From Manis javanica (Eukaryota; Chordata; Mammalia; Pholidota; Manidae), in NCBI RefSeq assembly GCF_040802235.1, contig NC_133167.1, forward strand, positions 40,236,001 through 40,300,000: DNA of 64,000 nt, in the 5' to 3' direction. A program made the translations under genes and the position numbers. The notes beneath the pieces were generated by a model, which did no database searches, was not told the DNA's origin, and worked only from the letters and a program-made list of their open reading frames with translations. Each line of letters begins with the position of its first letter. Position 1 is the stretch's first letter. Of the stretch, positions 4,190 to 58,800 are shown one piece after another.

Positions 4190-5780
4190 TAAGGCAATCT
4201 TGAGAAACTAGAACAAAGCAGGAGTATCATGCTCCTGGACTTATAACTATGCTACAAAGCTACATTAATCAAAGCAGTATATAATACTAGAACAAAAACA
4301 GACTCATAGAGCAATGGAATAGAATACGGAGCCCAGAAATAAACCCTTCTATGCTTCTATGGTCAACTAATTTATTACAATGGAGGCAAGAAGATACAAT
4401 GGGGAAAAGACAATCTCTTCAATAAATGGTATTGGGCAACTAGACAGCTACATGCAAAAGAACAAAACCGGACCACTTTCTTACACCATATACAAAAATA
4501 AACTCAAAATTGAATAGACTTAATATATGACCTGAAATCATAAAACTCTTAGACAAAAAACAGGAAGTAAGCTTTTGATATTGATCTTAGTGCTAATTCC
4601 TTGCATCTGTCTCCACAGACAAGGAAAACAAAAGCAAAAAAGAGAAAAGGAAAAAGCAAGCAAGCAAATGCGACTGACTACATTCAACTAAATAGCTTTT
4701 GCACACAGAAAGAAACCATCAACAAAATGAAAAGGCAACCAACTAAATAGGAGAAGATATTCACAAATGATGTATCCAATAAGGGGTTAACATACACAAT
4801 ATATAAAGAACTCATGTAACTCAATATTTTTTTAAAAAAACAATCTGATTAAAAAATGATCAGAGGATGTAAACAGTCAATTATCAAAAGAAGACATTTC
4901 TATGGCCAACAGATACATGAAAAGATAGAGAACTTCACTAACCACCAGGGCACTGCAAATCAAAACCACAGTGAGATATCACCTCACACAGCAGAGTGGC
5001 TACTATCAACAAAACAAGAAATAACAAGTTTGGCAGGGACGTGGAAAAAGGGAACCCTTGTATACTGCTGGTGGGATTGTAAATTGGTGCAGCCACTACA
5101 GAAAACAGTAAGGAGCTACTTCAAAAAATTAAAAAACAAAACAAACAAAAATTGATCCAGCAATTCTCCTTTTGGGTATTTTTCTGAAAAAAATGAAAAC
5201 ACTAACTGGAAAAGACATATGCACCCCTATGTTCATTGCAGTATTATTTACAATAATCAGGATAGGGAAGCAACCTTAAGGTCATTGATAGATTAATGGA
5301 TAAATGGGTTTTTATTACTCAGCTATAAAAAAGAATGAATCTTGCCATTTGTGACAACATGGATGGTCCTAGAGGGCATTATGCTAAATGAAATGAGTCA
5401 GACAGAAAGACAAATACCCTAGGATTCCATTTATATGTGGAATCTAAAAAACAAAGAAACAAAGAAAATGAAATAGAAATAGACTCATAGACACAGAGAA
5501 TAAACTGATGGTTGCCAGAGGAGAGTCGGGTAGGAGGAAGGATGAAATAGGTGAAGGGAATTAAGAAGTACAATCTCCCAGTTATATAATAAATAAGACA
5601 CTGGGATATAATGTACAGTATAGGGAATATAGTCAATAATATTGTGACAATTTTGTATGTCAGATGGTAACTAGATTGTGGTGACCATTTCATAATGTAT
5701 ATAGAATCACTATGCTGTACACCTGAACTAATACAATATTGTATGTCAATTATTCTTCAATAATAAAAGTTACTCTTCAT
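4190..5780 (+). mobile_element. L1 3' end (L1MA/L1MB-like), 5'-truncated
   Basis: ORF2 C-terminal text is recognisable (AATCAAAGCAGTATATAATA, the GTGGCTACTATCAACAAAAC region and TGCTGGTGGGATTGTAAATT). It is followed by an L1 3' UTR ending near TTCTTCAATAATAAAAGTTA. Many stops and indels make it an old, dead copy. Confidence 0.85.
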
Positions 5781-22800: not shown

Positions 22801-25800
22801 AATTCTTCCTATCCATGAGCATGGTATAGATTTCCATTTATTGGTATCTTCTTCAATTTCTCTCATGAGGGCCTTATAGTTTTCAGAGTAAATGTCTTTC
22901 ACTTCCTTGGTTAGATTAATTCCTAGTTATTTTATTCTTTCTGATGTAATTTTAAATGGAGTTGTTTTCCTGATTCTAGGAATGCAACAGATTTCTATGT
23001 ATCAATTTTATATCCTGCAACTTTGCTGAATTCAGTTGTTAGTTCTAATAGATTTCTGATGGAGTCTTTAGGGTTTTCTATGTATAAGGTGTCATCTGCA
23101 AATAGTGACAGTTTTAATTTCTTCCTTACCAATTTGGATGCCTTTTCTTTGTGTTGTCTCATTGCCAAGGCTAGGACCTCTGGTACTATACTGAATAAAA
23201 GTGGTGAAAGTGGGCATCCTTGTCTTCTTCCTGATCTTAGAGGTAAAGTTTTTCAGCTTTTTATTACAGAGTATGATATTGGCTGTGGGTTCATCATATA
23301 TGGCTATTATTATGTTGATGTACATACCCTCTATACCCATTTGGTTGAGTCTTTATCATGAATAGATGTTGAATTTTGTCAGATGTTTTTTCAGCGTCTA
23401 TTGAGATGACATGATTTTTGTCCTTTTTGTTAATGATATTGATTGATTTATGAATATTGTACCATCCTTGCATGCCTGGAATAAATCCCACTTGGTCATA
23501 ATGGATGATCTTTTTGACATATTTTTGGATTTGGTTTGCGAATATTTTGTTGAGAATTTCTGCATCATCCTGTTCATCAGGGATATTGGTATACAATTTT
23601 CTTTTTGTGTGGTGCTTTTCATTTTGGTATTAGAGTGATGGTGGCCTCATAGAATAGTTCAGAAGTATTCCCCTCTTCTACTTTTTGGAATACTTTAAGA
23701 AGGATGGGTATCAACTCTTCTTTAAATGTTTGATAAAATTTAGCTGCGCACATGAAAAGATGCTCCACATCGCTAATCATCAGGGAAATGCAAATTAAAA
23801 CCACAATGAGATATCACCTCACACTAGTTAGGATGGCCAACATCCAAAAGACAAGGAACAAAAAATGCTGGCAAGGATGTGGAGAAAGGGGAACCCTCCT
23901 ACACTGCTGGTGGGAATGTAAACTAGTTCAAACATTGTGGAAAGCAATATGGAGGTTCCTCAAAAACTAAAAATAGAAGTACCATTTGACACAGGAATTC
24001 CACTTCTAGGAATTTACCCGAAGAAAACAAGTTCACAAATTCAAAGAGACATATGCACCCCTAAATTTATAACAGCACAATTTACAATAGCCAAGACATG
24101 GAAGCAACCTAAGTGTTCATCAGTAGATGAATGGATAAAGAAGATGTGGTACATATACCCTATGTAATACTGTTCAGCCATAAGAAGAAAACAAATCTAC
24201 CATTTGCAACAACATGGATGGAGCCAGAGGGTATAATGCTCAACGAAATAAGCCAGGCACAGAAAGACAAGTACCAGATGATTTCACTCATCTGTGGAGT
24301 ACAACAACAAAGCAAAACCAAAGGAACAAAACAGCAGCAGAATCACAGACTCTAAGGGACTAGCGGTGACCAAAGGGAAAGGGGGTGGGGGCGGCAGGCA
24401 GGCAGGGAGGCAGAAGGGGATTAAGGGGTATTAAGATCAGCACACATAATGTAGGGGGGTCATGGGGAAGGCAAGTGAAGCACAGAGAAGACAAGTAGTG
24501 ACTCTATAGCATCTTACTATGCTGATGGAGTAACTAATGGGGTATGTGGTAGGGACTTGATTATAGGGGGGAATGTAGTAACCACAATGTTGCTCATGTG
24601 AAACCTTCATAAGACTGTATATCAATGATACCTTAATTTAAAAAAAAAGTGAAAAAAAATTCATCCGTGAAGCCATCTGGACCTCAAGTTTCATTTTCAG
24701 GAAGTTTTTTGATTACCAATTCAATTTCATTGCTGATAATTGGTCTGCTCATTTTCTGTTTCTTCCTGGGTCAGTGTTGGAAGGTTGTATTTTTCTAGAA
24801 AGTTGTCCATTTCTTCTAAGTTGCCCAATTTATTGGCATATAACTTTTCATGGTATTCTCTAATAATTCTTTGTATTTCTGTGGTGTCCGTTTCCTTCTT
24901 CCTTTCTGATTTTATGTGCATACTCTTTTTTTCTTGGTAAATTAACCCCCTGGCTAGGGGTTTAACTATTTTGTTTATTTTCTCAAAGAACCAGCTCCTG
25001 ATTCCACTGATATTTTCTATTATTCATTTCTATTTATTTCTGCTCTGATCTTTATTATGTCCCTCTTTCTACTAACTTTGAGCTTCATTTGTTCTTTTTT
25101 AGTTTCTTTAATTTTGAGTTTAGACTATTATTTATTTGGGATTCTTCTTGTTTCTTGAGGTAAGCCTATATTGCTATGTACTTTCCTCTTATAACTGCCT
25201 TTGCTGCATCCCAGATTTTGTAATGTATTGTTCAGTGCCTGTGTTTCCTTACTTATTTTCTGTCTGATCTATTGATGTGAGTATTGTGTTAGGTGTTAGT
25301 CTCCTAAAATTAATGTGTTGCAGTCTATATCCCCATTAATTGTTAGTATTGGTTTTACATATTGAGGTGCTCCTATGTTGGTGCATATGTATCTTCTTCA
25401 ACTGAATCCTTGATCATTATGCAATGTCATCTTTGTCTCTTGTTACTTTGTTTTGAAATTTATTTTATCTGACATAAGTACTGCTACTCCTGCTTTTTTT
25501 CACCTATTATTTGCATGAACTATCTTTTTCCATCCCTTAACTTTTAGTCTGTGTATGTCTTTGGGTCTGAAATGAGTCTCTTTTAGGCAGCATATAGATG
25601 GGTCTTGTTTTTTTTATCCATTCTGTCACTTTACATCTTTTGATTGGTACATTCAGTCCATTTACATGTAAGGTAATTATTGATAGGTATGTACAATTGC
25701 CATTTTATTGTTTTCTGGTTGTTTTCATAGCTCCTCTCTGTTCCTTTTTTTCCTTATACTCTTCTCTTGTTATGTGATGGATTTCTTCACTGTTGCGGTT

Positions 25801-46800: not shown

Positions 46801-49800
46801 AATGAGCTTAAGAATGTATGAAGCCATTCTAAAAATGTGATTTGTGAGTATTGTTCTTATCAAAAAAATTACCAATGGTTCATTTGTCTCAGGTTCAGAA
46901 GACTTACCACATAGAAGTGCTGTTAATGCAGCCAAAAATCCAACTATTTGTATCCTATTAATAACAAAACAAAGCACACTAAATATTATAGCAAATAATT
47001 ATAGAAAATAGGAATCTTCAACATTTTACTGTTATATGATAGGTCAGTAGGCACAATGGAAACAAAATAACAACCTGTTATTTAGAAACTATCCAAGATT
47101 CCCAAAAGTCAAATAGCTCAAAGGTTGGCAAAGAAGTCTAATGTCAATATAAGCCAGTAAACTAGAGCAACAGTATGAGAAAGCATGCCCTGATGGGTAC
47201 CTCTCCACAGCATACTGCCTAAGCAATTCTAATTTTTGAACCAATACTTGCAAAGTTTGGCTATGTCCACATAGGCAGACCTCAGACATATTGCACATTC
47301 AGTTCCAGACCACTGCAATAAAGCTAATATTGCAAAAAAGCAAGTCAAATGAATTTTTTGGTTTCCCTGTGTATATAAAAGTTAAGTGTACATTATATTG
47401 TCGTCTATTAAGTGTGTTATAGCATTATGTCTTAAAATATAAGATATATAACTTAAAAAACTTTATTGCTAAAAATATTGCTACCATCATCTGAGCTTTC
47501 AGTGAATCATAATCTTTGTTGCCATTGGAGGGTCTTGTCTCAATGTTAATGGATGCTGACTGATCAGGGTGCTAGTTGATAAAGGCTGTGGTGGTAGTGG
47601 CAATTTCTTAAAATCAGACAACAATGAAATCTGCTATATTGATTGGCTCTTTCTTTTTACAAGAGATTTCTCTGTACTGTGTGATACTGTCTGGCAGCAT
47701 TTTATCCACAACAGTACTTCTTTCAAAACTGGGAGTCAATCCCTGTAAACCCTGCTGCTGCTTTATCAACAATATCAGTAATATTCTAAATCCCTTGTTG
47801 TCATTTCAACAATCTTTACAGCATCTTCACCAACAGTAGATTCCACCTCAAGAAACCACATTCTTAGTTCCTCCATAAGAAACAACTCCTCATCCATTCC
47901 AGTTTGATCATGAGATTCCAGCAATTCACTTACATCTTCAGGCTCTGTTTCTAATTCCACCACATCTGCAGTTACTTCCTCCACTGAAGTCTTGAGCCCC
48001 TCAAAGTCAACCAAAAGTGTTGGAATCAACTTGTTCCAAACTCCTGTAAATGTTGCTATTTTGACCTCTTCCTACAAATCACGAATATTCTTTTTTTTTT
48101 TTAGCATTTTTTTTTTGAGAGGGCATCTCTCATATTTATTGATCAAATGGTTGTTAACAACAATAAAATTCTGTATAGGGGGGTTATGCTCAATGTACAA
48201 TCATTAATCCATCTCAAGCCTAATTCTTGTCACTCTCCAATCTTCTGAAGCATAACGAACAAGTTCTTACATGGTGAACGAATTCTTACATAGTGAATAA
48301 ATTCTTACATGGTGAACAGTACAAGGGCAGTCATCACAGAAACTTTCAGTTTTGATTACGCATTATGAACTATAAACAATCAGGTTATATATGAATATTC
48401 GTTTAATTTTTATACTTGATTTATATGTTGATCCCACATTTCTCCCTTTATTATTATTATTATTTTTAATAAAATGCTGAAGTGGTAGGTAGATGCAAGA
48501 TAAAGGTAGAAAACATACTTTAGTGCTGTAAGAGGGTAAATGTAGATGATCAGTTGTGTGCCTGTGGACTAAGTATTAATCCAAGCTAGACAAGGGCAGC
48601 AAAACATCCACGGATGCAGAAGATTTCTCTCAAAACAGGGGGGGTGAGGTTCTGAGCCTCACCTCTGTTGATCCCCAATTTCTCACCTGATGGCCCCCCT
48701 GCGACTGTGCCTGTCTTAGGTTGTTCCTCCATTAAGGAATCTTACCCTGAGGAATTTACCCGTCTCTGGCTAACCAGTCATCTTCCGGGGCCATACAGGG
48801 AAATGTAAAGTTGGTAAGTGAGAGAGAAGCCATATTGTTTGCAAAGGTTAGCTTTTTACTTCTTTGCAGATTTATGCCCTGTGGCTTCTATGCCCAGCAC
48901 TTGTCTCGAGGTATCTTTACCACCTGGAGGAATTATGATACTCGGTAAATTTGATATGAGGCACGAATTCTATTTAAGGTTTGTAATTAGGAAGGAAGAA
49001 GAAAAGCTATAGATGTAGCATATGAAGGAAACTTGGGAGGATTGATTATTTCTTTGACATATCTTCTTGTATAGTACCTTAAGTATGTATAGGTTTTAAA
49101 CTACTAACTAATTTGCACACACATATTAACATAATAGGAATACGGTGACATAAACAAAGCAAATCTATAATTACCAGCCATCTGCAGTGAAGCCAAGAAA
49201 ACCATTTAGGCACCCTAGGCATTTGTGAAAATTTGTCTATGATATGATGGATATTGTCCTACTGTACTTGAACAGTCTGAGAGAAATCAGACAAATTAAA
49301 GCAGCCCATTTCTGGGATCTGTTCACATCCCATATATTCTTTTAACCATAGATAGTCTATAGTCATAACATTTTGGAGTGCTACAACCTGCACCCCTCCC
49401 AACTCCTGGTTGAGTTCCAACAGTACATATCCGGTCAAATTCGTTGTCTCACTGTATGCACATGCCAGCCTAGACATCTCCCTCCTCATTCCAATGGCAA
49501 GTCCAGGAAACGGTGGGGTGGATGCAGCCACAACCGCAGCATCGCCCAGATCCCTGTGGAGGCTTTTTGATGATCATCCCCTGGCACAAGTCCTCCAGAG
49601 AGTGCTGATGCCGGAAGCTCCTCCTCATATCGTATCTTAGTTCATTTTCTGGGTATCCAAGCTAGGCCTTGATCTTCTGCACAGAAACAAACAGACCCTT
49701 TGCCCACACTTTGACATGCCCTCTATACCACTGTGCAGAACTCATTGGAGGTCAGCACACAGGAACTGTTTTTTGTTTTTTTTTTTATTAAGAGAAAGGA

Positions 49801-52800
49801 ATATTATCAGAAAAGAGTACCTCCATAGCTGATCATCTGACACCCTTTAAGTGATCAACATTAAGGATATTTAAAGCATGCGTTGATCTTTGATTTACCA
49901 ATAGTTTTATCCTATCAAGGAGTAATCCCCCTTTTTTTCATTCTTTCTTTTTTTCTTTTTTTTTTTTAATCTTTAATCTACACTTACATGAAGAATACTA
50001 TGTTTACTATGCTCTCCCCTATATCAGGTCCCCCCTAAAAACCACATTATGGTTACTGTCCATCAGCTTAGCAAAATATTGTAGAATCCCTACTTGTCCT
50101 CTCTGTGTTGTATAGCCCTCCCTTCCCTTTCTCCCTCCCCCCCCATACATGCTAATCTTAATACCCCCCTTCTTCTTCCCCCCCCTTATCCCTCCCTGCC
50201 CACCCATCCTCCCCAGTTCCTTTCCTTTGGTACCTGTTAGTCCATTTTTGGGTTCTGTAATTCCGCTGCTGTTTTGTTCCTTCAGTTTCTCCTTTGTTCT
50301 TATACTCCTCAGATGAGTGAAATCATTTGGTATTTCTCTTTCTCCGCTTGGCTTATTTCACTGAGCATAATACTCTCCAGCTCCATCCATGTTGCTGCAA
50401 ATGGTTGGATTTTTCCACTTCTTATGACTGAGTAGTATTCCATTGTGTATATGTATCACATCTTCTTTATCCATTCATCTACCGATGGACATTTAGGTTG
50501 CTTCCAATTCTTGGCTATTGTAAATAGTGCTGCGATAAACATACGGGTGCATCTGTCTTTCTCAAACTTGATTGCTGCTTTCTTAGGGTAAATTCCTAGG
50601 AGTGGAATTCCTGGGTCAAATGGTAGGTCTGTTTTGAGCATTTTGATGAACCTCCATACTGCTTTCCACAATGGTTGAACTAATTTACATTCCCACCAGC
50701 ACTGCAGGAGGGTTCCCCTTTCTCCACAGCCTTGCCAACATTTGTTGTTGTTTATCTTTTGGATGGCAGCTATCCTTACTGGTGTGAGGTGATACCTCAT
50801 TGTAGTTTTAATTTGCATTTCTCTGATAATTAGTGATGTGGAGCGTCTTTTCATGTGTCTGTTGGCCATCTGTATTTCTTTTTTAGAGAACTGTCTGTTC
50901 AGTTCCTCTGCCCATTTTTTAATTGGGTTATTTGTTTTTTGTTTGTTGAGGCGTGTGAGCTCTTTATATATTCTGGACGTCAAGCCTTTATCGGATATGT
51001 CATTTTCAAATATATTCTCCCATACTGTAGGGTTCCTTTTTGTTCTATTGATGGTGTCTTTCGCTGTACAGAAGCTTTTCAGCTTAATGTAGTCCCACTT
51101 GCTCATTTTTGCTGTTGTTTTCCTTGCCCGGGGAGATATGTTCAAGAAGAGGTCACTCATGTTTATGTCTAAGAGGTTTTTGCCTATGTTTTTTTCCAAG
51201 AGTTTAATGGTTTCATGACTTACATTCAGGTCTTTGATCCATTTTGAGTTTACCTTTGTATATGGGGTTAGACAATGGTCCAGTTTCATTCTCCTACATG
51301 TAGCTGTCCAGTTTTGCCAGCACCATCTGTTGAAGAGACTGTCATTTTGCCATTGTATGTCCATGGCTCCTTTATCAAATATTAATTGACCATATTTGTT
51401 TGGGTTAATTTCTGGAGTCTCTAATCTGTTCCACTGGTCTGTGGCTCCGTTCTTGTGCCAGTACCAAATTGTCTTGATTACTATGGCTTTGTAGTAGAGC
51501 TTGAAGTTGGGGAGTGAGATCCCCCCTACTTTATTCTTCTTTTTCAGGATTGCTTTGGCTATTTGGGGTCTTTGGTGTTTCCATATGAATTTTTGAATTA
51601 TTTGTTCCAATTCATTGAAGAATATTGCTGGTAATTTGAGCGGGATTGCATCAAATCTGTATATTGCTTTGAGCAGGATGGCCATTTTGACGATATTAAT
51701 TCTTCCTAGCCATGAGCATGGGATGAGTTTCCATTTATTAGTGTCCCCTTTAATTTCTCTTAAGAGTGACTTGTAGTTTTCAGAGTATAAGTCTTTCACT
51801 TCTTTGGTTAGGTTTATTCCTAGGTATTTTATTCTTTTTGATGCAATGGTGAATGGAATTGTTTTCCTGATTTCTCTTTCTATTGATTCGTTGTTAGTGT
51901 ATAGGAAAGCTACAGATTTCTGTGTGTTAATTTTGTATCCTGCAACTTTGCTGTATTCCGATATCAGTTCTAGTAGTTTTGGGGTGGAGTCTTTAGGGTT
52001 TTTTATGTACAGTATCATATCATTTGCAAATACTGACGGTTTAACTTCTTCTTTACCAATCTGGATTCCTTGTATTTCTTTGTTTTGTCTGATTGCCATG
52101 GCTAGGACCTCCAGTACTATGTTAAGTAACAGTGGGGAGAATGGGCATCCCTGTCTTGTTCCCGATCTCAGAGGAAATGCTTTCAGCTTCTCGCTGTTCA
52201 GTATAATGCTGGCTGTGGGTTTATCATATATGGCCTTTATTATGTTGAGGTACTTGCTCTCTATTCCCATTTTGATGAGTTTTTATCATGAATGGATGTT
52301 GAATTTTGTCAAATGCTTTTTCAGCATCTATGGAGATGATCATGTGGTTTTTGTCTTTCTTTTTGTTGATGCGGTGGATGATGTTGATGGATTTTCGAAT
52401 GTTGTACCATCCTTGCATCCCTGGGATGAATCCCACTTGGTCACGGTGTATGATCCTTTTGATATACTGTTGAATTCTGTTTGCTAATATTTTATTGAGT
52501 ATTTTTGCATCTACATTCATCAGGGATATTGGTCTGTAATTTTCTTTTTTGGTGAGGTCTTTGCCTGGTTTTGGTATTAGGGTGATGTTGGCTTCATAGA
52601 ATGAGTTTGGGAGTATTCCCTCTTCTTATATTTTGTGGAACACTTTAAGGAGAATGGGTATTATGTCTTCTCTGTGTGTTTTGTTCTTGGGTAGTTTTTT
52701 GATTACCGTTTCAATTTCTTTGCTTGTAATTGGTTTGTTTAACTTTTGTGTTTCTTCCTTGGTCAGTCTTGGGAGGTTGTATTTTTCTAGGAAGTTGTCC

Positions 52801-55800
52801 ATTTCTTCTAGGTTTTCCAGCTTGTTGGCATATAGGTTTTCATAGTAGTCTTTAATAATTCTTTGTATTTCTGTGGAGTCTGTCATGATTTTTCCATTCT
52901 CATTTCTGATTATGTTGATTTGTGTTGATTCTCTTTTTCTCTTAATAAGTTTGGCTAGAGGCTTATCTATTTTCTTTATTTTCTCAAAGAACCAGCTCTT
53001 GGTTTCGTTGATTTTTGCTATTGTTTTATTCTTCTCAATTTTGTTTATTTCTTCTCTGATCTTTATTATGTCCCTCCTTCTGCTGACTTTAGGCCTCATT
53101 TGTTCTTCTTTTTCCAGTTGCGATAATTGTGATGTTAGACTATTCATTTGGGATTGTTCTTCCTTCTTCAAGTGTGCCTGGATTGCTATATACTTTCCTC
53201 TTAAGACTGCTTTCGCTGCGTCCCACAGAAGTTGGGGCTTTGTGTTGTTGTTGTCATTTGTTTCTGTATATTCCTTGATATCTATTTTGATTTGTTCATT
53301 GATCCATTGATTATTTAGTAGCATGTTGTTAAGCCTCCATGTGTTTGTGAGCCTTTTTGTTTTCTTTGTAGAATTTATTTCTACTTTCATACCTTTGTGG
53401 TCTGAAAAATTGGTTGGTAGAATTTCAATATTTTGGAATTTACTGAGGCTCTTTTTGTGAGCTAGTATGTGGTCTATTCTGGAGAATGTTCCATGTGCAC
53501 TTGAGATGAATGTATATCCTGTTGCTTTTGGATGTAGAGTTCTATAGATGTCTATTAGGTCCATCTGTTCTAGTGTGTTGTTCAGTGCCTGTGTGTCCTT
53601 ACTTATTTTCTGCCCAGTGGATCTATCCTTTGGGGTGAGTGGTGTGTTGAAGTCTCCTAAAATGAATGCATTGCAGTCTATTTCCCTCTTTAGTTCTGTT
53701 AGTATTTGTTTCACATATGCTGGTGCTCCTGTATTGGGTGCATATATATTTAGAATGGTTACATCCTCTTGTTGGACTGACCCCTTTATCATTACGTAAT
53801 GTCCTTCTTTATCTCTTGTTACTTTCTTTGTTTTGAAGTCTATTTTGTCTGATATTAGTACTGCAACCCCTGCTTTCTTCTCACTGTTGTTTGCCTGAAA
53901 TATGTTTTTCCATCCCTTGACTTTTAGTCTGTGCTTGTCTTTGGGTTTGAGGTGAGTTTCTTGTAAGCAGCATATAGATGGCTCTTGCTTTTTTATCCAT
54001 TCTATTACTCTGTGTCGTTTGATTGGTGCATTAAGTCCATTTACATTTAGGGTGACTATTGAGAAATATGTACTTATTGCCAGTGCAGGCTTTGGATTTG
54101 TGGTTACCAAAGGTTCAAGGTTAGCTTCTTTAGTATCTTACTGCCTAACTTAGCTCGCTTATTGAGCTGTTATATACACTGTCTGGAGATTCTTTTCTTC
54201 TCTCCCTTCTTATTCCTCCTCCTCCATTCTTCATATGTTGTGTTTTGTTCTGTCCTCTTTTAGGAGTACTCCCATCTAGAGCAGTCCCTGTAGGATGCCC
54301 TGTAGAGGTGGTTTGTGGGTAGCAAATTCCCTCAGCTTTTGCTTGTCTGGGAATTGTTTAATCCCGCCATCATATTTAAATGATAGTCGTGCTGGATACA
54401 GTATCCTTGGTTCAAAGCCCTTCTGTTTCATTGCATTAAGTATATCATGCCATTCTCTTCTGGCCTGTAGGGTTTCTGTCGAGAAGTCTGATGTTAGCCT
54501 GATGGGTTTTCCTTTATAGGTGACCTTTTTCTCTCTAGCTGCCTTTAAAACTCTTCCCTTGTCCTTGATCCTTGCCATTTTAATTACTGTGTGTCTTGGT
54601 GTTGTCCTCCTTGGATCCTTTCTGTTGGGGGTTCTGTGTAATTCCATGGTCTGTTCGATTATTTCCTCCCCCAGTTTGGGGAAGTTTTCAGCAATTATTT
54701 CTTCAAAGAGACTTTCTATCCCTTTTCCTCTTTCTTCTTCTGGTACCCCTATAATACGAATATTATTCCTTTTGGCTTGGTCACATAGTTCTCTTAGTGT
54801 TGTTTCATTCCTGGAGATCCTTTTATCTCTCTCTATGTCAGCTTCTATATGTTCCTGTTCTCTGGTTTCTATTCCTTCAATGGCCTCTTGCATCTTATCC
54901 ATTCTGCTTATAAATCCTTCCAGGGATTGTTTCACTTCTGTGATCTCCTTCCTGACATCTGTGATCTCCCTCCGGACTTCATCCCATTGCTCTTGCATTT
55001 TTCTCTGCATCTCTGTCAGCATGTTCATGATTTTTATTTTGAATTCTTTTTCAGGAGGACTGGTTAAGTCTGTCTCCTTCTCAGGTGTTGTCTCTGCTTT
55101 GTCTGCCTGTAGTTTTGCCTTTTCATGGTGATAGAGATAGTTTGCAGAGCTGGTACGAGTGACCGCTGGAAGAACTTCCCTTCTTGTTGGTTTGTGGCCT
55201 TCCTGTCCTGGGAGAATAGCGACCTCTAGTGGCTTTTGCTTGTCAGCTGTGCACAGACAGGGCTTCTGCTACCTGCCCATTTGCTATGGAGTTTATCTCC
55301 GCTGTTGCTGTGAGCGTGGCCTGGCTGGGGCTGCTCCTCCAAAATGGTGGAGCCCCATTGGAGGGGGAGCGGCTGGGAGGCTACTTATCTCCGTAAGGGG
55401 CCTCTGTGCTCCCTGTTGCCCAGGGGGTTAGAGTGCCCAGAGATCCCCAGATTCCCTGCCTCTGGTCTAAGTGTCCTGTCCTGCCCCTTTAAGACTTCCA
55501 AAAAGCACTCTCCAAACCAAAACAACATCAGCAACAATGAGAGAGGAAACAGAAAAAAAAAAAAAAAAAAGGAAAAAACGCGATTTTTTTTGTCCTCAGG
55601 CACCGGTCCCAGGCACCCGCTCACTGGTCCTGCTGCCCTGCCTCCCTAGCACCGGGGTCCCTGTCCCTTCAAGAGTTCCAAAAAGCACCTGCCAAAAAGA
55701 AAAAAAAAAAAAGGGAAAAACACGCGATATTGTTTGTCCTCAGGCGCCGGTCCCAGGCACCCACCCACCGGTCCTGCCGCCCTGCCTCCCTAGCACTGGG

Positions 55801-58800
55801 GTCTCCGTCCCTCCAAGGCCTCCAAAAAACACTCGCCAAAAAGAAGGTAGAAACGCGCGACCCTCTCCATCCCCAGGTGTCGGTCCCAGGCACCTGCTCA
55901 CTGGCCCTGCCGCCTTGCCTCCCTGGCACTGGGGTCCCTGTCCCCCTAAGGCCTCCAAAAAGCACTTGCAAAAAAGAAAAAAAAAATGGGAGAAACGCGC
56001 GATTTTCTTTGTCCTCAGCCACCAGTCCCAGGCACCCGCCCATCAGTCTTGCTGCCCTGCCTCCCTGGTATTGGGGTCCCCGTCCCTCCAAGGCTTCCAA
56101 AAAGCACTCGCCAAAAAGAGAAAAAAAAAAAGGGGAAAAACGCGCGATTTTGTCCATCCTCAGGCGCCGGTCTCAGGCACCTACCCACCGGTCCCGCAGG
56201 GAAAAACGCGCGATATTCTTTGTCCTCAGGCGCCGGTCCCAGGCACCCGCTCACCGGTCCAGCCGCCCTGCCTCCCTAGCTCTGGGGTCCCTGTCCCTTT
56301 AAGGCTTCCAAAAAGCACTCGCCAAAAAAAAAAACCGCTCCGGTCTCTTTCCTCCCGCCGGGAGCCGGGTGGAGGGGCGCTCGGGTCCCGCCGGGCTGGG
56401 GCTTGTATCTTACCCCCTTCGCAAGGCGCTGGGTTCTTGCAGGTGTGGATGTGGTCTGGATGTTGTCCTGTGTCCTCTGGTCTCTATTTTAGGAAGAGTT
56501 TTCTGTTATATTTTCATAGATCTATGTGTTTTTGGGAGGAGATTTCCACTGCTCTACTCACGCCGCCATCCTGGCTCCGCCTTGAAATCACGAATATTCT
56601 TAATGGCATCCAGAATGGTGAATCTTTTCCAGAAGGTTTTCACTCTACTTTGCCCATTTCCATGAGAGGAACTACTATCTCTAGCAGTTATAGCCTTACA
56701 AAATGTATTTCTTCAATAATAAGACTTACGAGTTGAAATTAGTCCTTGATCGCTGAGCTGCAGAATAGATGTTGTGTTAGCAGGTATGAAAACAACATTA
56801 ATCTCATTGTGTATCTCTATCAGAGCTCTTGAGTGATCTGGTGCATTATCAAAGAGCAGTAATATTTTGAAAGGAATCTTTTTCTGAGCAGTAAGTTTCA
56901 AAAATGGGCTTAATATATTCAGTAAGGTATATATAGATGTGCTGTCATCTAGGCTTTATTATTCCATATTTAGAACACAGGCAGAGTAGATTTAGCATGA
57001 TTCTTAAGGAAGGGCCCTAGGATTTTCAGAATGGTGAGTGAGTACTGCCTTAAACTTAAAGTCATCCATTGCATTAGCTCCTAACAAGAGAGTCAGCCTG
57101 ACCTTGAACTTTGAAGCCAGTCATTGACTTATCCTCTCTAACTATGAAAGTCCTAGATGGCATCCTCTCCTAGTAAAAAGTTTTTTTCATCTACACTGAA
57201 AATCTGTCATTTAGTGTAGCCACCTTCATTAATTGTCTGAGCTAGATCTTCTGGATAACTTGCTGCAGCTTCTACACCAGCACTTAATGCCTCACCTTGT
57301 GTTTTTAATGTTATCGAGATGGCTTTCCTTAAAATTTCCAACTTTCCTTCTGCAACTTCCTCACCTCTCTCACCCTTCACAGAATTAAAGAGAGTTAGGG
57401 TCTTGCTCTGGATTATGGTTTTGGCTTACGGAATGTTGTGGCTAACCAATCTAGACCACTAAAACTTTCTCAGTATCAACAATAAGAATACACACAATAT
57501 GTATCAATTACGTTCACCATCTTATAGGAGAGCAGTTCATGAAGCCCCAAAACAATTACAGTAACAACATAAAAAAATCACTAATCACAGATCACCATAA
57601 TAAGTATCATCAAAATAATGGAAAAGTTTGAAATATTGCAAGAACTACCAAAACATGACACAGAGACACATACACAAATGCTTTTAGAAAAATGGTGCTA
57701 ATAGACTTGCTCAACACAGGGTTGCCACAAACCTTCAATTTGTAAAAATCACATTATCTATGAAGTGCAATAAAACTAGGTATGCCTATACTCTAATTAG
57801 GTATTTACTTATTAAGTAAACTACATTTTAACAAAAGTAGAATAATGAACTACAGGTGGACTTTCATACAAATAGAAAAAATATTCAGAGGCAAGTAACT
57901 GAAAATAACAATCGACAATTAATACATGATCAAGGAGGCAAGAATACAAATGGGAAAAAGAGTCTTTTCAATAAATGATGCTGAGAAAACGATGTTGGGA
58001 CAGCTACATGCAAGAGAATGAAAGTGGATCACTGTCTTATGCCATTCACAAAAATAAATTTAAAGAGGATTGAAGACCTAAACATAAAACCTGAAACCAC
58101 AAAACCCCTAGAAGAAAACATAGGCAGTAAATTCCTGAACATCACCATTTGCAATTCTTTTCTGGATAAGTCTCCCAAAGCAAGGGAAACAAAAGCAAAA
58201 ATAAACAAGTGAGACTACATCAAACTAAAAAGCTTCTGCATGGCAAAGGAAACCATCAACAAAGTGAAAAGGCAACCTACTGCATGAAAGAATATATTTG
58301 CAAATATCTGATTAGAGACTAATATGCAAAATACATTAAGAATTCATATAACTCAACACTAAAAAAACAAATAATCTGAATAAAAAATGGGCAGTGCACC
58401 TGTCTATTCAGATAGATATTTTTCCAAAGAAAACAAACAGATAGCCAACAGATACATGAAAAGATGCTCAACATCACTAATCATTGGGGAAATGCAAATC
58501 AAAACCACAATGAAATCTCACACCAGAGTGCCTAACATCAACAAGATAAGAAGTAACAAGTGTTGGCAAGATGTAGAGAAAATGGAACATCTGTGCCTTG
58601 CTGGTGGAATTGCAAATTGGTGCAGCCTTTATGGAAAGTAGTATGGAGGTTTCTCAAAAAACTACAAATAGAAATGCCATATGACCCAGCAAATTCCACC
58701 CGTAGAAAATCAAATCACTAATCTGAAAAGATACATGAACTCCTATGTTTACAGAAGCATTATTTACAATAGCCAAAAGATGAACAATCTCAATGTCCTT

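Follow-up and report, generated by a model that had tools for sequence, protein, structure and literature searches.

A pangolin LINE-1 family that carries a retroviral env-LTR segment as its 3' end

A stretch of 64,000 nucleotides of the Manis javanica genome (NC_133167.1; here called the window, and the reference for all coordinates given below) contains an element in which a near-full-length LINE-1 (L1) on the minus strand, with its 5' end at 56584, runs on at its 3' end into sequence of an endogenous retrovirus (ERV). This composite (48093-56584) belongs to a large family of pangolin L1s whose unit consists of an L1, a remnant of env, a polypurine tract (PPT), the U3-R part of a long terminal repeat (LTR) and a poly(A) tail. 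The combination of an L1 with an ERV 3' end is confirmed as a recurrent structure and not a one-off, and the family has almost certainly moved as a unit, because its members share both the junction and the end, have target-site duplications (TSDs) outside the whole unit, show similar divergence in their L1 and ERV parts and in some cases keep L1 open reading frames (ORFs) open. These results support the interpretation given in an earlier, sequence-only reading of the locus, which had proposed an L1-driven insertion of such a chimera. Features described below that this reading had left unmentioned are the first A-run and the 155-bp stretch in the L1 3' end, the additional tail of an older subfamily and the spliced-looking copies.

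Results

Copy number and shared structure of the family

Genome-wide counts were obtained in 2,559,957,944 bases. The exact pattern of the L1/env junction was present 6,182 times; for the U3-R-poly(A) end, 27,100 matches with at most 2 mismatches were found. The reversed-pattern control gave 0 matches in both cases. The second number counts ends and not insertions, some elements holding two (L042) or three (L041) of them. That there are fewer junctions than ends is expected from 5' truncation of copies, and the requirement of an exact match reduces the number of junctions further. With a 351-bp junction probe, which gave 670 first-look candidates, all 40 scored places matched, the window copy at 100% and the 39 others at 96-98%. 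The sequence-only reading had raised the possibility of many copies with the exact junction, and had named as its refuting outcome the absence of this junction from every other locus together with a separate TSD around the env-LTR part alone; the numbers above bear out the former and make the first half of the latter false.

Copies were compared in a sample of 21, consisting of the window copy and 20 of the 39 other junction places (10 kb each); these loci were picked by their likeness to the window, and the sample is therefore a young one. The same terminal base followed by A was found in all 21 copies, and the same two flanks surrounded the A-run of the junction in 22 of 22 junctions (L013 holds two). 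In the window, a single TSD pair of 17 bp, AAATCACGAATATTCTT, encloses the whole unit, with one copy on the 3' side of the element (48076-48092) and the other on its 5' side (56585-56601), identical at 17/17 bases. When duplications were searched outside the whole unit, allowing one mismatch, a score of at least 9 was reached by 15 of the 21 copies and by 17 of 420 mismatched pairs used as control, and 11 copies scored above the control maximum of 11. Together with the constant junctions, these duplications agree with what had been claimed from the window, namely a single TSD around the L1 and its extra 3' sequence and movement of both as one unit by L1.

Mean pairwise divergence was 3.4% in a piece of ORF2 and 3.6% in the 3' untranslated region (UTR), with 20 copies compared for each, and 4.0% in env, 3.9% from env to the PPT and 3.7% in U3-R, with 21 copies each. 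Both ORFs are open in three of the 21 copies (L023, L028 and L029; ORF1 of 307 aa and ORF2 of 1271 aa), and the near-identity of L023 and L029, whose ORF2 sequences differ by 0.05% over the part compared, suggests recent activity. To judge from these copies, a long-lived L1 lineage that uses a retroviral 3' end is probably still mobile. The L1 AATAAA at the joint reads ATTAAA in six of the 22 junctions (L019, L023, L027, L028, L029 and one of the two in L013), among them all three copies with both ORFs open, and the internal signal may be weakened in these. In L010, L012, L024, L025 and L027 the R-poly(A) is followed by additional or complex A-rich sequence, which in some of them is likely to represent further 3' transductions.

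Organization of the window copy and identity of its parts

All parts described here lie on the minus strand and are given in the sense direction. The L1 5' UTR (55269-56584) includes about 4.5 tandem units of ~142 bp (55553-56194), reminiscent of the tandem-repeat L1 promoters of mouse and horse, and the length of the element varies among copies. It is followed by the ORF1 frame (54276-55268), of 330 aa from stop to stop and 250 aa from the first Met, and by ORF2 (50456-54137), which is broken in this copy. In Pfam, the ORF1 protein (ORF1p) matched RNA-binding-domain-like and double-stranded-RNA-binding-domain (dsRBD)-like families, and ORF2p the endonuclease and reverse transcriptase families (PF02994, PF17490, PF03372 and PF00078). 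The unit thus has what characterizes a mammalian LINE-1, i.e. an ORF1 protein with an RNA-recognition motif and dsRBD, an ORF2 endonuclease-reverse transcriptase and a TSD with an A-rich tail; the nearest ORF1p carries the name Manis javanica (93% over 84%). The order of an SVA element (Alu-like, VNTR and SINE-R, without L1 ORFs) is not that of this unit, in which the L1 ORFs are present. Downstream of ORF2 come the L1 3' UTR with a G-rich tract (49969-50455), a first internal A-run (49944-49968), a further 155-bp stretch of L1 3' UTR (49789-49943) and a second A-run at the L1/env junction (49769-49788), which is likely the fossil of a former 3' end.

The remaining 1.65 kb is not L1. It starts with CAGTTCC, the beginning of a stop-broken env remnant (49079-49768) that comprises the transmembrane (TM) subunit and probably the end of the surface subunit, and continues to the PPT AAGGGAGAAA (48439-48448) and the LTR start TGTGGGATC, with its TG directly after the PPT. 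U3-R (48117-48438) contains 3.3 copies of a 19-bp repeat (48257-48318) and an AATAAA polyadenylation signal in R (48135-48140), and its end is identical in 21/21 copies. The terminal poly(A), with a TGCT interruption (48093-48116), begins 18 bases beyond the AATAAA, and U5 is absent. Polyadenylation of the ERV part at the LTR, which had been proposed before, is borne out by this arrangement. An open TM piece of 104 aa (49259-49573) matched the TM of avian sarcoma/leukosis virus (ASLV) in the PDB (4jpr, E 8.4e-7; 5h9c, E 9.5e-7), the sole matches there at E up to 10, and, at E up to 0.01, also 39 of the 44 short proteins from metagenomes that came up as candidates. These matches and the PPT uphold the earlier assignment of the extra part to the 3' part of an ERV env followed by a PPT and U3-R. 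No Pfam family was found for three pieces of the env region, and among IMG/VR contigs the env piece gave a single 19-residue match and a U3-R 27-mer gave 0. The donor of env was probably a class II ERV with an alpha-like env, a class assigned on the TM, as gag and pol are absent here. Within the window, a blastn comparison found no second copy of the ERV part, and Rfam gave 0 matches.

Putative splicing into the L1/env junction

In most of the 22 junctions a G precedes CAG, so that the sequence AAAG/CAG would provide a splice acceptor, which has CAG/TT as its neighbour; in the window copy this G is missing (AAAA-CAG). A pattern for env starts that lack the A-run gave 320 matches, of which about 100 were listed. 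Among the matches listed, and counted by eye, 16 of the 22 perfect rows read TGGACTAACAG/TTCC, and nine rows with one mismatch read ACTAACAG/CAGTTCC. In five loci that were fetched (L111-L115) the L1 3' UTR is cut exactly after the CAG of CAG/GTACC, a putative donor found in the window at 50234/50233, and is joined to AG/CAG or CAG/TT. In L106 and L107, on different contigs, approximately the first 170 bases of the L1 5' UTR are joined to env and both ORFs are skipped; these spliced-looking copies point to another donor in the 5' UTR, near 56410-56414 in the window. As in spliced integrated retrotransposed elements (SpIREs), donor and acceptor are joined exactly at these loci, which are DNA copies, and the intervening sequence is missing. 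We infer splicing because the positions of donor and acceptor are exact, and the junction, judging by the copies, appears to work like a splice acceptor. For the TT-form joins a jump at the CAGTT microhomology is a rival to splicing. With their leader and env-U3R and no ORFs, L106 and L107 could belong to a small non-autonomous group.

Age of the family and probable stepwise extension of its 3' end

Four old L1s, 75-82% identical (at window position 24599 and in L010, L012 and L014), end near the first A-run, with neither the 155-bp extension nor env. An older subfamily (L030/L040) has the same env joint as the window group and, in a comparison of one old copy, differed from it by 11.5% in env-U3R, 16.2% in the L1 3' UTR and 7.4% in ORF2. 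An env probe of the older subfamily gave 2,297 candidates, and 40 of the 40 places scored matched at 96-100%, the probe's own place included. The upstream side was fetched for 30 of them. In seven of these older composites env is joined straight to the first A-run; 19 contain the 155-bp stretch (17 called by script, L081 and L084 by eye), and L055, L061, L078 and L080 are other upstream forms. In L080, env starts directly after the U3-R poly(A) of another copy, as if one composite had inserted in, or been joined to, the tail of another.

Many older composites continue beyond U3-R and its A-run into an L1 3' tail that we take to be of the classical mammalian type, with a 75% match at window 5591-5767 in favour of this. 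This tail follows the A-run in L030, L031, L032, L063, L066, L067, L069, L070, L072 and L074, among others; it was present in 7/7 older copies without the 155-bp stretch, in approximately 12 of the 19 with it (a count obtained on re-reading, in which rows scripted 'noRend' were assigned by reading) and in 0/21 of the window group. It is probably a further 3' addition, and together with the two internal A-runs it suggests repeated extension of the 3' end. The 155-bp stretch may have been either gained or lost in this history.

Ages were estimated with a rate of 2.2e-9 substitutions per site and year. At this rate, the corrected divergence of 4.1% in the young sample would correspond to ~9 million years, and the 12.5% (corrected) between subfamilies to ~28 million years. 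The two Asian pangolins are reported to have split ~16.4 million years ago (PMC12584738, consulted in part), and in view of these dates the unit should also occur in the Chinese pangolin.

Discussion

Origin of the composite

In the simplest route to this structure, an L1 would have landed, in sense orientation, in the env of a provirus of class II with an alpha-like env; this fits the A-run, the sense orientation and the LTR end. Transcription of that L1 would have run through the L1 signal as far as the 3' LTR, and the resulting product would have founded the family as a 3' transduction; as in L1 3' transductions generally, the carried sequence lies inside the TSD and has a new poly(A) end. 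From then on, transcription would start from the L1 5' UTR and polyadenylation would take place at the LTR signal, and L1 would insert the unit in cis through target-primed reverse transcription. We regard founding by this route as fairly probable, and our confidence in the whole account, composite family, life cycle and L1-in-env origin taken together, is likewise fair.

Several observations weigh against this account. Neither a parent provirus nor a source locus with an L1 in env was found in the parts of the listings inspected, although a provirus with a matching env-LTR had been suggested as something to look for. Among the 320 env starts that exclude A-runs (about 100 listed, 13 fetched), repeated proviral context was seen in 0 of the 13, which showed L1 contexts, spliced forms or unique DNA (L103, L104 and L108). 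R ends without three A's gave 681 matches, some places being repeated, and the nine distinct places read had no shared U5; they consisted of A-rich degenerate tails or a shared L1-like tail. In the young sample, six of the 21 copies (L014, L015, L017, L022, L026 and L028) scored below 9 and have no convincing TSD, and a seventh, L013, counted among the 15 that scored at least 9, has a low-complexity duplication only. A longer piece of ORF2 diverges less (2.7%, 19 copies) than the ERV part (4.0%), which could be explained by selection on ORF2. Finally, the lack of the 155-bp stretch in seven of the 30 older composites means that the order of additions is not fixed.

Other routes to the same structure have to be considered. 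A 5'-truncated ERV retrocopy (env-U3-R-poly(A)) could have inserted into the A-tail or a 3' UTR A-run of an L1 that then spread. A-runs are favoured L1 targets, and the succession of ERV part, A's and classical L1 tail in the older subfamily does resemble an insertion inside the 3' UTR. A later addition at the 3' end is the better reading of that tail, and the empty site, with the L1 3' UTR joined directly to the tail, had 0 exact matches genome-wide. After this result, insertion of the ERV inside the L1 3' UTR before the classical tail was demoted; an ancient form could escape exact matching, and such a search does not bear on insertion into a terminal A-tail. We consider the retrocopy route unlikely as a whole.

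Template switching also seems improbable. Here a polyadenylated ERV RNA would have served as the first template, and after reverse transcription of U3-R and a portion of env the reaction would have switched to an L1 RNA at its poly(A) end and copied the L1, which would also yield L1, A-run, env-U3R and poly(A) within one TSD. Such a jump would have to be internal and to land precisely at the end of a full-length L1 RNA, and nothing specific to this route was seen. Jumps of a related kind may take place in this family: tandem (AAT)n-PPT-U3-R units of ~370 bp, each with its own A-rich end, are found in L041 (three) and L042 (two), and are likely due to jumps between A-rich stretches of the same unit, with the poly(A) tail and the A-rich stretch that precedes the PPT as the probable partners. 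That the L1 and a later env-LTR copy in its A-tail came together by separate insertions at the window locus, for which the A-run at the junction is the one argument, is refuted for practical purposes by the 6,182 exact junctions, the TSDs outside the whole unit and the similar divergence of L1 and ERV.

Implications

Going beyond the L1-in-env origin, a broader picture can be put forward tentatively, at somewhat less than an even chance. An autonomous L1 lineage would have run for more than 20 million years (at the rate used above) on a captured retroviral 3' terminus that serves as a working 3' UTR, provides the LTR poly(A) signal, has a splice acceptor where L1 and env meet and has been added to repeatedly; it would shed spliced, ORF-less leader-env-LTR derivatives, and it may be the main or only young pangolin L1. 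If true, this would offer, at the 3' end, a parallel to the swapping of 5' UTRs by which L1 evolution is driven. A coding L1 with a fixed retroviral env-LTR 3' end in thousands of copies shows that the 3' end of an L1 can be replaced too, and by an ERV, and makes it possible to test whether an LTR poly(A) signal helps L1, through fewer premature ends or escape from silencing. The unit also seeds thousands of U3-R sequences across a mammalian genome, so env and LTR matches in repeat or ERV surveys of pangolins may be L1 ends and not proviruses.

Comparison with known systems

The SINE-R of SVA derives from an env-LTR segment. The pangolin unit is similar to SVA as an L1-mobilised composite with an ERV-derived 3' end; SVA is non-autonomous and has no L1 ORFs, whereas the pangolin unit is a coding L1 with an ERV end and would have arisen independently. 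SVA has been treated as an LTR fusion in a 2026 survey of human L1 chimeras (PMC13174262), which, in the portion consulted, describes fusions at the 5' end and raises the speculation that L1 evolution is driven by chimeras. Those chimeras also join L1 to another RNA, but their transductions are at the 5' end, and that paper contains none of the words pangolin, Manis and Pholidota.

L1 3' transduction, mentioned in the part of PMC6500023 seen, shares with the pangolin unit the read-through past the L1 signal, the downstream sequence inside one TSD and the internal A-run that is kept. Unlike in the usual cases, the cargo here is an ERV env-U3-R segment that now forms an unchanging 3' end in a family whose junction is found in thousands of copies. 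Mammalian L1 lineages are described as often recruiting new 5' UTRs (PMC5872511, in part); in both situations an active lineage swaps a regulatory end for unrelated sequence, in the pangolin at the 3' end and from a retroviral donor. SpIREs (PMC5860796, in part) are likewise copies of spliced L1 RNA, the putative acceptor of the pangolin family being located at the L1/ERV junction, where the 5' leader can join env directly.

On the retroviral side, ARTenvV is presented in the excerpt of PMC9604959 as an L1-mediated retrocopy of an ERV env mRNA, with TSD and A-tail. It is a single env gene retrocopy and, unlike the pangolin unit, is not joined to an L1. At one pangolin locus an L1 adjoins env and an LTR of a gamma ERV, according to the sections of PMC12584738 consulted, and this locus is comparable in type to the proposed source; the env studied here is alpha-like, and a relationship is not implied. 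ERV-Alpha-Mpen, placed between alpha and beta in the same sections, would be a plausible relative of the donor.

A literature search, judged from titles and the beginnings of abstracts, found no L1 family that combines coding capacity with a 3' end made of ERV env-LTR sequence; Dfam and Repbase, which were outside this search, may hold the sequence unnamed. Both 3' transduction and ERV-derived composites such as SVA are already known.

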